Of a DNA stretch of 41,312 nucleotides, positions 6,817 to 15,458 are shown in pieces. The position numbers were made by a program, and so were the translations under genes. Every line of letters starts with the position of its first letter. The first letter of the stretch is position 1. The notes under the pieces are model-generated. The model saw nothing but the letters and a program-made list of their open reading frames with translations. It did no database searches and was not told the origin of the DNA. The stretch comes from Promethearchaeota archaeon (lineage in GTDB: Archaea > Asgardarchaeota > Lokiarchaeia > Sigyniarchaeales > SOKP01): positions 1-41,312 of the forward strand of contig JAHLWH010000030.1 in the NCBI GenBank assembly GCA_019058015.1. The letters run 5' to 3'.

Positions 6817-7764
6817 ATGAAAATCTTTATAGTTGCTAAGGGTGAATTAAAGGAAGTAAATAAGCCAATATTTTCCTCTGGAGATACTTATATTGTTGAT
6901 GATGAAAAAACCATTTATATATGGCTTGGTAAATATTGCTCGGTAGATGAAAAAACATTTGCGGCAATGAAAGCTAGAGAATTGGATGAGCAAAGAAGTG
7001 GTGCTGCAAAAATTATTACTCTTGATCAAGGTCAAGAAATAAAAGAGTTTTTACAACTTGTTGGAGGAATGAAAATCGTAGATAAAAATTTAGCAAAGAC
7101 TATGCTTATTGATGTAGACACTGGTGATTGGTCAGGTGCGGGAGAGCATGTAAACACACTCTATAGAGTCTCTTCTGAAGAGTTTGAAGATATAAATACC
7201 ATGAAATTTATCCAAGTACCCTTTAAAAAAGAAAGTTTAGATTCTGAAGATTGTTTTATTGCAGATTTAGGAGATAAAATTTATATTTGGCAAGGTGCGA
7301 ATTCTAATGTCAAAGAAAAAGTAAAAGGTGGACAATGGGCAAGAAGTTTTGACGCTGAACGAGCAGGATCACAAAATGAAGTTATTTTTGAAGAAGGTGA
7401 TGACTCAGAATTTATGAAAATTTTCGAAGAAAAAGTTGAGACCTCTGTTGATGAACATGTACAATTTTCTGCAGAATCTGCATTAGAGAAAGAAGAAGTC
7501 TCTGAACCGGTAAAAGAACCTGAGCCTGAAATGGTAATTATACCTATAAAAGAACCCCCTACCCCAACTACAATGGATTTGGATACTGGGATATTAACAG
7601 TAGGAAAACCCACTGGACGACGTAAATGCCCCAAATGTGGCGAGGAACTTAAGTATATGATTCATGAGACCATTGACAAAAACAACATCATAATGGATTA
7701 TCCAAGAGTATATGGCAAGAAATACAAATGTGGAAAGTGCGGAACGGAGTGGAGGGAGAAATAG
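6817..7764 (+). CDS. Two-domain gelsolin-like protein with C-terminal zinc ribbon
   Basis: A 315-residue protein with two gelsolin-type repeats. The first spans about 2-82 (DTYIVDDEKTIYIWLGKYCS at 23-42) and the second about 113-205 (DCFIADLGDKIYIWQGANS at 145-163). The D-x-(Y/F)-I...-I-(Y/W)-I-W-x-G core is the gelsolin/villin hallmark. A Pro/Glu-rich linker (about 206-260) leads to a zinc ribbon at 266-315 with CPKC (C271, C274) and CGKC (C305, C308). Two-domain gelsolins from Asgard archaea are known to bind and sever actin, so an actin-regulating role is likely here. The attached ribbon may bind nucleic acid or a partner. A promoter and GAGGT ribosome site support the ATG at 6817. Confidence 0.88.
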   Translation: MKIFIVAKGELKEVNKPIFSSGDTYIVDDEKTIYIWLGKYCSVDEKTFAAMKARELDEQRSGAAKIITLDQGQEIKEFLQLVGGMKIVDKNLAKTMLIDVDTGDWSGAGEHVNTLYRVSSEEFEDINTMKFIQVPFKKESLDSEDCFIADLGDKIYIWQGANSNVKEKVKGGQWARSFDAERAGSQNEVIFEEGDDSEFMKIFEEKVETSVDEHVQFSAESALEKEEVSEPVKEPEPEMVIIPIKEPPTPTTMDLDTGILTVGKPTGRRKCPKCGEELKYMIHETIDKNNIIMDYPRVYGKKYKCGKCGTEWREK

Positions 7765-10122: not shown

Positions 10123-11364
10123 ATGATAAAAAAATACAAAAAAGGGCAATCAATTTTATTAGAAGGTCCAGCTAAGGCCGCATTATTAAATGGAGAAGTT
10201 GAGATTTTTGGAAAAGTTATAAAGGTTACAGATAAAAGAGAAAGAATAGATCTTTTAGAACCGAATAAAAAAGATCCTAATGTAATAATTATTTCAACCG
10301 GTATAAGGTATCCTTTATTATTTTTGGAAGATTCTGAGATTGATATTTATGTGGCGAATGAAGACCAGGTTATTGAATTGGAGGATAATTCGATTCCAGA
10401 AAGTTGGGCTAAAATTTCTAATAAAATTATTGAAGATATTAAAAAATCGACCAGTACTACCCCAGCAAAAATAATGGTATTGGGTCTTAGCAGCGGGAAA
10501 ACGACAATTATTAAATATTTAGCCAATAAATTATTAGCAGAGGGTTTAAAGGGAGGATATTTAGATTCGGACTTAGGGCAGCAGCAGATGTATATTCCCA
10601 CAACGATTAATATTGGAATGATAGATTCACATGTTTTATCAACTCAAGATTTTCTTTCTAAAGACACAAAATTTATTGGTTCTACGTTTCCAAAAGCTGA
10701 CTTGAAATATATCTTACCACATTATTCTAAAGAATTAATAGAAGAATTTTGCAAGAAAAATAAAGAGATTCGATTCATTCTTATTGATACAGATGGCTGG
10801 ATCAAGACAGAAACTGGTATTCTTTATAAAAAACTTTTTACTTCTATGATTCAACCAGATTATGCTATCATATTTAAAAACAAGGAAGTAAAAGAGTTAG
10901 AGGAAATTGAGAAAGATATAAAAAAACTCAGTTCAAAACCTAAAATCTTTTTAATAGATGCTGAAAATAAATATTATTTTGAAAGAACTAAAGAAGATCG
11001 CCGGTTTTTAAGACAAAGGCAATTTGCTATGGTTTTTGAAAAATTTCGCAAAATTACTGTCCCTTTTAATGAGATAATACTGATTAAAGAGGAATATGAT
11101 ATGGAAAATAAAAAAATTATCGAAAAACAATTAAATTTCGAAGAATTGGGAAAATTACCCTATCATTATGTAATAATTGCTTTAAAAACCGAAAAGAATG
11201 AACTAATTAATATAGGACTTCTTTTTAACATAAATACTGAGAAACAATATTTTCTTTTGTATTCGGATTTTAATTATAAGGAGCAAATTAAAATTAAAAA
11301 GATCGTAATAGGAAGTCTTAGGCTCTCCGTCAAGGGAAATTATCAGGGGTATTTATATCTTTAA
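10123..11364 (+). CDS. Clp1/Grc3-like polynucleotide 5'-hydroxyl kinase family protein
   Basis: A 413-residue P-loop protein with the layout of archaeal Clp1/Grc3/Nol9 proteins: an N-terminal beta domain (about 1-90, with ILLEGPAKAALLNGEVEIFGK), a central kinase domain, and a C-terminal beta-rich domain. The P-loop is at 121-128 (GLSSGKTT), followed by the family mark YLDSDLGQQ at 146-154, where the Asp after the strand is the usual catalytic or lid-proximal acid. Family members phosphorylate RNA 5' ends in tRNA or rRNA processing. The P-loop has three rather than four residues between its glycines, one fewer than the G-x4-G-K-[ST] rule, so activity is uncertain. Translation begins at ATG 10123. 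Confidence 0.8.
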   Translation: MIKKYKKGQSILLEGPAKAALLNGEVEIFGKVIKVTDKRERIDLLEPNKKDPNVIIISTGIRYPLLFLEDSEIDIYVANEDQVIELEDNSIPESWAKISNKIIEDIKKSTSTTPAKIMVLGLSSGKTTIIKYLANKLLAEGLKGGYLDSDLGQQQMYIPTTINIGMIDSHVLSTQDFLSKDTKFIGSTFPKADLKYILPHYSKELIEEFCKKNKEIRFILIDTDGWIKTETGILYKKLFTSMIQPDYAIIFKNKEVKELEEIEKDIKKLSSKPKIFLIDAENKYYFERTKEDRRFLRQRQFAMVFEKFRKITVPFNEIILIKEEYDMENKKIIEKQLNFEELGKLPYHYVIIALKTEKNELINIGLLFNINTEKQYFLLYSDFNYKEQIKIKKIVIGSLRLSVKGNYQGYLYL

Positions 11365-11483: not shown

Positions 11484-12875
11484 TTGAACTTAGATGATTC
11501 AGATTTAATTGAGTTGGGTAAATATTTTGGTGTAAATCTAATATCATTTAAATTACTGAGGGAATCACAAGATGACAAATACGCCGATAAAATCAGAGAA
11601 AGGGCATTAAAAAAACTGGAGAAATCAAAGGAGAATTATTTAATTGAGAAAGAAATGTTTTATGCTGGAGCTATTGATTTTATGGTGGAAGAAAATAATG
11701 GACGCAAAAGATTTTTCGTACTTGAGACGAATGGAGGCTCATCAAGAGGTCTTTCAATTATAACACCTAAACAACAAGGATTGTTATTTGATGGATATTT
11801 ACAAGCAATAAAAAATTCCTTAAAAAACAATAAAAGAGAAGATAATAAGCTCTTTATTTTAGTTGGCACGCCTATTGATGATGCGCTGCTTCATGAAAAG
11901 ATTTTTCTATTAGAATATTTGAAAAAAAAAATATTAGAAATTGGATATAGCGTCAATATTTATACTGAATTAAATTTTAAGGGATTTTTTACTGAAGACG
12001 TGGCATTTTTTATCACAGATTATAAAAAAATAGCCTTGAATATCTCATTTAAAGATAATTGGGTTATGTATACAGATCAAAAAATAAATCTATTAATAGG
12101 AGATGGAATTGCTCGTAGGATAAAAGATGAAGTTTTTAAGCGATTAATAAGAGAAGATTTTCGAAAAATTAATACAATTATTGTCAATCCGATTTTTTTA
12201 ATTACAGATGATAAATCTTTAACTTATTTGGCTGAATATTTCGCTAAAAGTAAGTTAGAAAAATATCGAGTAAAATATCTGATGTTTAGTAAAGGAATTA
12301 ATGAAGAGGATTTATTGAAAAAAATGGATTTTGTTGTTAAAAATTACAATACAAATTTTATTATCAAACCAAGTGGTGGATCTGGTGGAGCAGGTATTAT
12401 TCCTATTAGTTCTGACGAAGATCCCTCGAATTTTAAAAAGATTATTAAAAAAAGTAAAGATGAATTTTTTGGAAAATTTCTTAAAAATCGAGATCCATAT
12501 CCCTACACAATTATGGAAATGGCAGATTTCTCCTTAATTGATTGGAGAAATGGAAATCACACTTTTGATATTAGAATTTATTTGAGTCAAAAAGAAGGGA
12601 AAATAATTCCAATTGGTGGTTTGGTTAGAATTGCACGTAATTCTTATGGAGGGACACTGAATAAACAGGAGTTTGTGGTTAATTTAAGTGGTTATAATGG
12701 AAACATTGAGGCAGATCGTGCATTAGCAATATCACCAAGTACTAGGGACATATTAAACCTCTCTGATGAGGATTTTGTTGATATGTTTTGTATTGGCTGT
12801 GTGCTCTTCAAGAGCATTACTGAAACGTATAAAAAAATTATTAATTTTTCAGATTGGAGTAAAATAATTGAATAA
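11484..12875 (+). CDS. Circularly permuted ATP-grasp ligase
   Basis: A 463-residue protein with ATP-grasp motifs in permuted order. The metal/catalytic segment AGAIDFMVEE...VLETNGGSSRG (D65, E81, N83) is near the N terminus. The ATP-binding lysine and glycine loop FIIKPSGGSGGAG (K295, loop 297-304) come later, then the hinge-like TIMEMA (342-347), FDIRIYL (361-367) and GGLVRIARNSYGG (378-390). This order recalls CP_ATPgrasp/glutathionylspermidine synthase-like enzymes, which join a carboxylate to an amine through an acyl phosphate. The start is a TTG with a GGGGAG site 5 bases upstream. The stop overlaps the first codons of the M14-like peptidase gene, so synthesis is coupled. The substrate is unknown; the pairing suggests a peptide or amino-acid adduct. 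Confidence 0.72.
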   Translation: MNLDDSDLIELGKYFGVNLISFKLLRESQDDKYADKIRERALKKLEKSKENYLIEKEMFYAGAIDFMVEENNGRKRFFVLETNGGSSRGLSIITPKQQGLLFDGYLQAIKNSLKNNKREDNKLFILVGTPIDDALLHEKIFLLEYLKKKILEIGYSVNIYTELNFKGFFTEDVAFFITDYKKIALNISFKDNWVMYTDQKINLLIGDGIARRIKDEVFKRLIREDFRKINTIIVNPIFLITDDKSLTYLAEYFAKSKLEKYRVKYLMFSKGINEEDLLKKMDFVVKNYNTNFIIKPSGGSGGAGIIPISSDEDPSNFKKIIKKSKDEFFGKFLKNRDPYPYTIMEMADFSLIDWRNGNHTFDIRIYLSQKEGKIIPIGGLVRIARNSYGGTLNKQEFVVNLSGYNGNIEADRALAISPSTRDILNLSDEDFVDMFCIGCVLFKSITETYKKIINFSDWSKIIE

Positions 12876-14040
12876 TTCAAATTATTATATAGATAAGGAC
12901 ATATTAAACAAACTATTAATTCCACAAGAAAGAAAAAAATTATTAAATGAAATTTTTAATAAATTGGAATTATTTAATAAATCCGATTTTGTTGAGCTTG
13001 AATATTTAGAAATATCAGATGGTAAGATACCAGTTTTAACTATTAATCAGCCAAAAAGTTTAGATCAACTAAGAAAATTATATATAATGGTCGCATCTCA
13101 GCATAATGAATATTGCGGGCTTTTTGGACAAATATCTTATCTATTTGAATTAACCTCTACTAAAAATAAGGACCTCATATCCAATGAACTAAAAAATTCT
13201 ATGATAATATTATTTCCATTAATGAACCCTTATGGTTTCTTAAACCCTCGACCTGATAATAAATTCGGTTATTATTTGAAAAATGGTGACAATTTAAATA
13301 GATATTGGAGGAAGACTTTTATTCCCAATTTTAGGGAGAAAGATGAGGACAATAACCCATATATTATTCCGGAAAATGCTTTAGTCTTTAAAAATTTTAT
13401 GCAGAAATATTGGGAGAGGGATCTCGAGATATATTTAATCGATTTTCATGAAACTTCATTATTCAGAAGATTTACAGAGGATATGGTTAAAAATTTAAAT
13501 GCTTTCTACAAATTAGAGCATTATTATAAAATGTGGATTGTTGAATATCTCGTAAAAAGAGAAAATTTACCTAAGAGAGAACCATTATTTATGAAACCTC
13601 ATCCAGATTTAGATCACCATCATTTTAATATTACTATTAACCAAGGGGAACAATTAAGAGATAATTTAAAAGAAGCTTGGGAGAAAAATAATGACAAATT
13701 GCCCTTTGCTTATATTTATAATTACAAGAGCGGTGATTTTTGCAGATCAATTGCAAGAAATGTTCAAAGTAAATTGAAAGATCTCATGTGGGATATAAGA
13801 CAACCAGCATTTCTTCACCCAGAAGATCATGGATGTTTTGTCTGCTTGGGACATTCTACTCGAAGACCTAAAACATTCACATTTGAATTAGAATGTGACA
13901 AACAATTATTTAATCTTTTAGAAGAAATTGAAAAATGCAAAAGCAATCAAGTCTATTTTAACAAAAAAATTGATAATATCAATAAAATAATAGATATAGT
14001 AAGAGAAACAATTAAAGCAGCAGTAAATCTTAATTTTTAA
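12868..14040 (+). CDS. M14-like zinc metallopeptidase / amidohydrolase
   Basis: A 390-residue protein. Zinc-site elements are QHNE at 78-81, DFHE with H194, the substrate-side NLNRYW (R145), and a carboxypeptidase-like FTFELEC with E340 as the likely general base. Classical M14 enzymes have H-x-x-E; here that frame holds Q78 and E81, as in the helical-shape peptidases Csd4/Pgp1 where Gln is a zinc ligand. H79 could instead serve. It should cut an amide bond at the C-terminal side of a small or peptide substrate. The TTG start at 12868 overlaps the ligase stop by 8 bases, and the gene's end overlaps the convergent hydrolase gene by 11. The fold call is good; the substrate is unknown. Confidence 0.7.
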   Translation: MNNSNYYIDKDILNKLLIPQERKKLLNEIFNKLELFNKSDFVELEYLEISDGKIPVLTINQPKSLDQLRKLYIMVASQHNEYCGLFGQISYLFELTSTKNKDLISNELKNSMIILFPLMNPYGFLNPRPDNKFGYYLKNGDNLNRYWRKTFIPNFREKDEDNNPYIIPENALVFKNFMQKYWERDLEIYLIDFHETSLFRRFTEDMVKNLNAFYKLEHYYKMWIVEYLVKRENLPKREPLFMKPHPDLDHHHFNITINQGEQLRDNLKEAWEKNNDKLPFAYIYNYKSGDFCRSIARNVQSKLKDLMWDIRQPAFLHPEDHGCFVCLGHSTRRPKTFTFELECDKQLFNLLEEIEKCKSNQVYFNKKIDNINKIIDIVRETIKAAVNLNF

Positions 14041-15028
14041 AGAAATTTAAGGCACAAGTAACTATTGACAATTCATTCTTTTTCAGTAAATGACCTCCCT
14101 TTTTAAAAACTAATGTGTTTTTGTTTGATAGCTCCAACAATTCTTTGTTTTTTATAAAATTCTTAAATTTTACGATTCTATCGTTTCTTGCATGAACTAA
14201 CATTACTTTTTTGGTGAATTCTTTCCATTTTACCTCGGAACCAGAAAAATTTTGAGTTTTAAAGTTTTTAATCACATGATAAGGAGATATTGCTAAATTG
14301 GTCTCTTCACTAGGAAATTGGTGCATTCCTTTAAAGAAATATCGAAGCCACACAATTGGATTAAAATGAGGAATGTTTTCTCTAAAGTCAGCAATTGCAG
14401 ATACTGCAAATACTTTTTTAATTTCTTCTAAAGGAAAACCTCCACATAAAATGGTCAACGCACCAATACTAAATCCGGCTGTATAAATCTCTTTGTTGCC
14501 CATCTTATCATTATTTTGAATCCATCTCACAATATGTAAAAAATCATTAATTCTATTCTTAATATCAGCTTTTTTTCCTACTTTTTTAGATTCACCAGTA
14601 CCACGAGCGTCATAAACAAGAACAGGATAACCAAAATTTACGATTGGAAGGAAAAAATATTCTAAATCTTCTTTTAGATCTGAAAATCCCGGGGATATTA
14701 TGATTATGGGTTTATTTTGAGATAAATAAGTTGAATTAGAAATTTTCAATTGATATATTGCACCGGATAAAGATCCCCCTTCAACAGAAATACTTATTTT
14801 TTCCATGTGTATATTTTTTAGGTTAAACTTATTCCATCTATCAAGCCATATATCACGAAAACTCCAATAAACTTCAAATGGAATTAATACAAATAGAAAA
14901 GTTATAAGGGATAATATAAAACATGTATAAAAAGGATTTCTCCAAGATGCATTGACATAAAAGATAAAAGCAGAAAAGAAGATATCCACAGTAATTAATA
15001 TTAATCTTTTACTATTTTTCGAAAGCAT
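14030..15028 (-). CDS. Membrane-anchored alpha/beta hydrolase
   Basis: A 332-residue protein with two N-terminal membrane helices (about 9-25 and 33-53), then an alpha/beta hydrolase domain. The oxyanion strand is IIIISPGFSD (108-117), followed by VYDARGTGES (138-147), the nucleophile elbow GFSIGA with S187, the acid D283 in HARNDRIV, and H313 in KKGGHLL. The triad is complete, so it should be an active serine hydrolase (esterase, lipase or peptidase) with its domain near the membrane. The 3' end overlaps the convergent M14-like gene. The substrate is not predictable. The ATG on 15026-15028 is the first start. Confidence 0.82.
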   Translation of the reverse strand: MLSKNSKRLILITVDIFFSAFIFYVNASWRNPFYTCFILSLITFLFVLIPFEVYWSFRDIWLDRWNKFNLKNIHMEKISISVEGGSLSGAIYQLKISNSTYLSQNKPIIIISPGFSDLKEDLEYFFLPIVNFGYPVLVYDARGTGESKKVGKKADIKNRINDFLHIVRWIQNNDKMGNKEIYTAGFSIGALTILCGGFPLEEIKKVFAVSAIADFRENIPHFNPIVWLRYFFKGMHQFPSEETNLAISPYHVIKNFKTQNFSGSEVKWKEFTKKVMLVHARNDRIVKFKNFIKNKELLELSNKNTLVFKKGGHLLKKNELSIVTCALNFFKN

Positions 15029-15158: not shown

Positions 15159-15458
15159 TTATTTGTTAGCTTTATCCGACGGACAACCATAGTCGGTTCT
15201 AATCTCACAATTTCTCTTTGAACTACTTCCCGAACAATTTACACAAATTGTAGCCTTCAACATTTTTTCAATTTCACTTGCTGAACGCCCCGATTTTTCT
15301 TTATCAGTCTCATCTGCCAGCATCTCATCTTTAATTTTATTTAGATCCTCATAGGTTTCCTCTTCTAAATCATCGTCCCAGTCTTCTAAATCTATTTCCT
15401 CTTGAGCTGGAATGTCATCAATTTCTTCTTCTTTTTCTACGGTTTTTTTTTTACCCAT
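15159..15458 (-). CDS. Small acidic protein with C-terminal four-cysteine motif
   Basis: A 99-residue protein with no family I recognise. After MGKKK it is extremely acidic over residues 9-55 (EEIDLEDWDDDLEEETYEDL and beyond). The C terminus carries C72, C75, C84 and C92 in the pattern C-x2-C-x8-C-x7-C, which suggests a zinc site or small Fe-S site. There is no signal or membrane segment. It is an isolated gene between the hydrolase and the PLP enzyme, transcribed with both on the minus strand, with a gap of 91 bases to the upstream one. Real-gene status is supported by the ordered Cys motif and the good ATG start. Confidence 0.65.
   Translation of the reverse strand: MGKKKTVEKEEEIDDIPAQEEIDLEDWDDDLEEETYEDLNKIKDEMLADETDKEKSGRSASEIEKMLKATICVNCSGSSSKRNCEIRTDYGCPSDKANK

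Follow-up and report, generated by a model that had tools for sequence, protein, structure and literature searches.

A gene in a Lokiarchaeal genome: how it may work with its neighbor

What might be made, and what might be cut, where a gene for an amide-forming type of enzyme overlaps a gene for a protein with the fold of carboxypeptidases? The question is raised by contig JAHLWH010000030.1 of a Promethearchaeota archaeon (assembly GCA_019058015.1; Asgardarchaeota, Lokiarchaeia, Sigyniarchaeales, SOKP01), all 41,312 nt of which are referred to here as the window. The upstream gene encodes a circularly permuted ATP-grasp ligase and the downstream gene an M14-fold metallo-hydrolase-like protein, and both open reading frames (ORFs), including their 8-base overlap, lie where the original prediction had placed them (Table 1). 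We propose, tentatively and with the balance close to even, that they are a conserved pair in which the ligase builds an amide and the M14 protein hydrolyses the same bond or trims the C-terminal residue of the product. Among the open-licence papers that literature searches listed, judged by title or abstract opening, none is about this ligase-M14 pair; most of the subscription literature was outside the scope of that search. No clue came from a paper on CDC123-type ATP-grasp enzymes.

In the genomes searched, the M14 gene occurs only behind the ligase gene

Profile searches of 227 genomes of the phylum, 65 of them from the window's family, matched the ligase in 61 genomes, of which 59 were taken as real: 57 of the 65 family genomes plus G092 and G082 (G084 and G169 were weak and excluded, and G137 rests on the final 26 residues). 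The M14 profile matched in 35 genomes, as 32 genes that are intact or cut by a contig end and three stubs, G109 and G113 with internal stops and G117 with 31 residues. The 32 genes comprise 31 of the window's family and that of G092, seen as residues 2-87 and 259-383 on two contigs with the middle not seen. All 32 directly follow the ligase gene or its tail within one contig, and across the 227 genomes the profile search found M14 neither apart from a ligase gene nor in a ligase-less genome. The tight coupling that had been claimed thus stands for gene order and spacing, but it is one-sided: 27 of the 59 ligase genomes have no intact or contig-end-cut M14 gene, three of these 27 carrying the stubs. 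Neither rare adjacency elsewhere nor failure of a fold assignment, the two outcomes named beforehand as refuting the idea, was found.

Eight family genomes lack the ligase, and none of them has M14 (Fisher p 0.005, uncorrected for kinship; five of the eight are <80% complete). The Clp1-type and alpha/beta hydrolase genes that flank the pair are ~65 and ~320 nt apart in G136 and G129, with nothing of the pair between them, and ~4.4 kb apart in G152, with neither pair gene in that stretch. The contig of G103 stops ~2 kb past the hydrolase gene, and the other four genomes gave no close copy of that gene. A pattern scan with the ligase alignment over one genome per species (84,980 species, the window genome's own records possibly omitted) yielded 57 ligase loci; the record titles read Lokiarchaeota or Lokiarchaeia for 56 and Helarchaeota for one. 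In the protein database, all listed rows with a source name are Asgard archaea, most rows being nameless (120 listed of 375 for the ligase). G093 has two ligase-M14 places (C363 and C446), a second copy or a mixed bin. Similarity to the window's M14 protein is 59% and 84%, the lower value belonging to an N-terminal piece at a contig end and the other place holding a full gene.

Among 58 loci (the window plus 57), an M14 match follows the ligase in 32, including two stubs; at L061 the gene was found by tblastn. In 23 loci the convergent hydrolase gene follows 90-396 nt from the ligase end, one of these, L091, being the third stub by profile. The remaining three fit neither group by script; the Helarchaeal one was scored absent for the tree and the other two were left without a state. 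In a 55-ligase tree, from which three short pieces were excluded (29 M14-present and 24 absent rows), M14 presence requires seven changes by a quick method, and six of these are forced by well-supported branches. Together with the stubs, these changes indicate that the M14 gene has likely been lost repeatedly, although its root state could be presence or absence, since the Helarchaeal outgroup has no M14. Repeated loss with a one-way distribution suggests in turn that the hydrolase depends on the ligase and not the reverse.

The two genes might instead have no joint function and merely share a stable chromosomal stretch. Synteny across loci shows that the whole neighbourhood is kept, from the Clp1-type gene to the alpha/beta hydrolase and further, so that adjacency alone is weak evidence, and the M14 gene is frequently lost by itself. 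This explanation nevertheless has to account for an M14 gene that was not found away from the ligase gene in the genomes searched, for other ORFs that separate the Clp1-type gene from the ligase gene in several loci, and for an outgroup family (G092, L130) in which the two genes stand in the same order a short distance, about 80 nt, apart. We therefore consider it very unlikely. Five loci share the 8-nt overlap itself: that of the window and those of its four relatives in the genus. In the other loci, alignment puts the gap at -5 to +31 nt, with +75 nt in one outgroup. Within the genus, dN/dS is 0.12-0.14 for the ligase gene (three relatives) and 0.15-0.25 for the M14 gene (two relatives); one further relative was saturated. 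Both genes are under purifying selection within the genus.

The ligase is of the permuted glutathione synthetase type

The ligase had been read as a permuted enzyme, with a D-E-N segment first and K295 and a glycine loop later. These motifs are present in an alignment of 125 rows (the window, the 120 listed of 375 database matches, and four loci), in which D65, E81, N83, K295, the GGSGG loop, E345 and D362/R364 are conserved, key residues at 98-100%. Pfam scores for the two window proteins are weak and below the curated cut-offs (ATPgrasp_ST 1.3e-4, Peptidase_M14 4.7e-4); it is structure models (mean pLDDT 87.6 and 88.9 for the pair's two models) and structural matches that support the two folds and the permutation. 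The fold, the lysine, the glycine-rich loop and the acidic metal ligands place the ligase in the ATP-grasp superfamily, and structural matches spanning residues 2 to 419-423 place it with the permuted glutathione synthetase/glutathionylspermidine synthetase type. This class gives the better matches, whereas tubulin tyrosine ligase (TTL) matches only from about residue 120 and with a lower Z; absence of a family from the fold-match lists does not exclude that family.

The TTL model PF03133 has no match to the window protein up to E 1 and matches one of 49 members at 4.9e-4. The glutathionylspermidine synthetase model is neither among the three Pfam matches of the window protein nor among 25 of the 31 families for the 49 members. 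Matches to Protein Data Bank (PDB) sequences are weak, the best being a PurD enzyme (E 0.011, over the glycine loop), and include no glutathione synthetase.

Like eukaryotic glutathione synthetase (Foldseek 3.6e-12), the ligase has the permuted ATP-grasp order, and its D65-E81 spacing of 16 equals that of the metal-site pair Asp130-Glu146 in the yeast enzyme (PMC2845819). Identity in the structural alignments is 10-16%, and the arginine that contacts gamma-glutamylcysteine is missing: residue 63, two before the metal aspartate, is Ala in the window protein and Ser in the family consensus (equivalence via motif spacing). For want of this substrate arginine, we rejected glutathione synthetase proper. 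For the ligase, the predicted reaction is ATP-dependent activation of a carboxylate and its joining to an amine or amino acid.

LysX and ArgX work with the LysW carrier and a release enzyme. Their structural match to the window ligase starts at residue 123, so they are not permuted like it, and nothing in the pair was recognised as a gene for a LysW-like carrier.

The M14-like protein has glutamine at a zinc-ligand position

Structure model matches give the downstream protein a carboxypeptidase fold; a PDB sequence search with it returned no match. The motifs DFHE, NLNRYW and FTFELEC, pointed out originally, are present with key residues at 98-100% in 106 rows (the window and 105 of 108 database matches, three short ones excluded; the window protein is counted twice, as itself and as P0001). 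Conserved residues are E81, N144, R145, H194 and E340; H194 (100%), R145 (98%) and E340 (99%) are equivalent to His196, Arg145 and Glu270 via motif, not coordinates. The canonical M14 set, as tabled in PMC11266112, is H69, E72 and H196, R127 and R145, and E270.

The canonical HxxE motif (His69, Glu72) was not found. Its glutamate is retained, and glutamine stands at the His place: Q78 is present in all 106 rows, H79 and E81 each in 99%. With glutamine there, the protein is a candidate hydrolase. We set Q78 in the His place because the glutamate stands just before a helix (E81 directly precedes the one starting at residue 82 of the model) and because L145, another Asgard M14-like protein, above the Pfam cut-off, has SQANEF there. 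The Gln variant is thus not confined to the pair. The register may also be shifted, with H79 as ligand instead of Q78: when the family profile was compared with individual Asgard M14 sequences, none could be usefully aligned, and the one that reached this position, L136, set H79, not Q78, nearest the canonical His pair at 3% probability.

The protein could accordingly be a pseudo-enzyme or binding subunit that does not cut but serves to hold or regulate the ligase or to bind the ligase product. The invariant glutamine and its recurrence in L145 fit such a role, and among the M14 homologues tabled in PMC11266112 are inactive ones in which active-site residues have gone. Arg145 is missing from each of the five pseudopeptidases listed there and Glu270 from four of them, but His69 from none, whereas here the equivalents of Glu72, His196, Arg145 and Glu270 are retained at 98-100%. 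Furthermore, H79 beside Q78 could act as a ligand. Glutamine also serves as a zinc ligand in some other enzymes, and we regard a pseudo-enzyme as improbable. If the protein does cut, its Gln-for-His change would be a test of how far the M14 metal site can drift.

H317, H321 and C323 (His-x3-His-Gly-Cys), ahead of the catalytic Glu strand, are invariant as well. Conventional M14 proteins (PF00246) were matched in 12 of 39 relatives' genomes, one match being the pair's own M14 family (G094, below cut-off), and AstE_AspA in two of 39, one again being the pair's own family (G095).

A candidate cycle of amide formation and cleavage

In the proposed pair, the ATP-grasp enzyme would form an acyl phosphate and hand it to an amine, and the M14 protein, which retains the carboxylate-binding Asn-Arg, would take the C-terminal residue off the product. 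The hydrolase would be an accessory step of trimming, turnover or editing, since it was never found without the ligase in the genomes searched and has probably been lost more than once. As to the product, the fold and a distant homologue's operons make a small peptide-like compound probable, one of the glutathione/glutathionylspermidine kind though not glutathione itself.

In glutathionylspermidine synthetase/amidase and trypanothione synthetase-amidase, too, an ATP-grasp ligase of the class matched here is joined to a hydrolase that acts on what the ligase makes. As summarised in PMC2784880, trypanothione synthetase-amidase combines synthesis with the opposing hydrolysis; its synthetase is essential, whereas the amidase can be dispensed with, although growth slows without it. 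A dispensable amidase resembles the M14 losses seen here. Amidoligase operons (Iyer et al. 2009, as cited in PMC6376114) also combine ligases with other enzymes, but as described there their gene content differs.

Eukaryotic TTL-like (TTLL) ligases and cytosolic carboxypeptidases are a pair of ATP-grasp writer and M14 eraser. By analogy, the window ligase might add amino acids to a C-terminus or side-chain carboxylate of a protein and the M14 protein remove them, as happens on tubulin. The original prediction had drawn this parallel, and the writer/eraser logic, with opposite activities presumed to meet on one substrate, is indeed alike. The better structural matches of the ligase, however, are in the glutathione/glutathionylspermidine synthetase class, the zinc motif of the pair differs, and no target protein is known. 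We regard protein modification as unlikely. Rather doubtful is the idea of a Lokiarchaeal reversible amino-acid ligation in which a glutathione-synthetase-type ligase and a Gln-site M14 eraser serve either a peptide-like cofactor or a TTLL/carboxypeptidase-like protein tag.

Lokiarchaeia are among the closest archaeal kin of eukaryotes. If the proposed pairing is true, they hold an undescribed cycle of amide forming and cutting around a new low-molecular-weight peptide or protein mark. The joint function is directly testable, because the eraser seems to depend on the writer and genomes with, without and with decayed erasers exist.

A distant homologue lies in a ligase-hydrolase operon

Six genomes from three other Asgard families encode a distant permuted ATP-grasp homologue (profile match with 94.6% probability, E 6.8e-8, 159 columns), all matched at E 1e-58 or better. 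For the G169 protein, two of its three relatives in the database carry the name Njordarchaeales. Alignment shows D65/E81/N83, R211-R212, K295, D362/R364 and R382 to be common to both groups. In six of six genomes the homologue lies with GCS2-like and FGase-like genes, in one order in five and in another in G004. Pfam labelled three of the ATP-grasp, three of the FGase-like (one below cut-off) and one of the GCS2-like proteins, and the rest were labelled by blastp to the G169 set. By analogy only, this operon supports a habit of combining ligase and hydrolase, and a product that is a small peptide. Comparing the M14 family profile with the FGase-like protein gave no alignment between these two hydrolases.

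GCS2 was rejected as a required partner, not being a consistent companion in the window's family. The operon-type query matched 29 of 227 genomes and 12 of the family's 65 (ten in full, a piece with a stop in G113 and a very weak match in G097), with no match in the window's genome. A divergent GCS2-like protein is present in 45 of 58 relatives, whether or not they have the ligase, and is thus not a specific partner; the Pfam GCS2 model alone matched 29 of the 58. In the window's genome, a divergent GCS2-like protein of 583 aa (L192:2-2678, G000:C10) adjoins a gene that resembles an amidohydrolase by eye (no Pfam match). A 402-aa Asgard protein (L162:18101-19306, no Pfam match) adjoins the ligase in the Helarchaeal genome G082 and lies near the M14 piece in G092; it was rejected as a partner, being present in 103 of 227 genomes and located elsewhere in the window's family.

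Features and neighbouring genes

Table 1. Features of the pair, its flanking genes and the distant operon (window positions unless a locus is given).
Feature	Position	Strand	Basis or remark
Permuted ATP-grasp ligase, 463 aa	11484..12875	+	TTG start, GGGGAG upstream; ORF, Pfam, alignment, structure model
N-terminal permuted metal-site segment, D65/E81/N83	11676..11732	+	100% in 125 rows
K295-P-x-GGSGGxG, ATP-binding lysine and glycine-rich loop	12366..12395	+	Alignment
D362-x-R364	12567..12575	+	Common to distant operon homologues too
Gene overlap, 8 nt including stop	12868..12875	+	ORF coordinates
M14-fold metallo-hydrolase-like protein, 390 aa	12868..14040	+	TTG start; ORF, Pfam, alignment, structure model
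Q78-H79-N80-E81, place of canonical HxxE zinc motif, Gln at His place	13099..13110	+	Alignment
N142-L-N144-R145-Y-W147, matches M14 Asn-Arg binding substrate carboxylate	13291..13308	+	Alignment
D192-F-H194-E, third metal ligand position, His196 equivalent by motif	13441..13452	+	Alignment
F-T-F-E340-L-E-C, catalytic Glu position, Glu270 equivalent by motif	13876..13896	+	Alignment
Clp1-type P-loop protein, flanking synteny marker outside pair	10123..11364	+	PF16575, 8.4e-28
Alpha/beta hydrolase, convergent, flanking synteny marker outside pair	14030..15028	-	Pfam, synteny
Three-gene cluster: permuted ATP-grasp, FGase-like hydrolase, GCS2-like ligase	L159:1566-5201 and L195-L199		

At 15159-15458 the window encodes a small acidic protein, Cys-rich at its C-terminus, which keeps its syntenic place in 35 of 41 loci; it was dropped as a candidate LysW-like carrier, its EDW stretch not being kept in the one relative compared. 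The protein encoded at 6817-7764 resembles, by eye, tandem gelsolin-type repeats with a Cys-rich tail.
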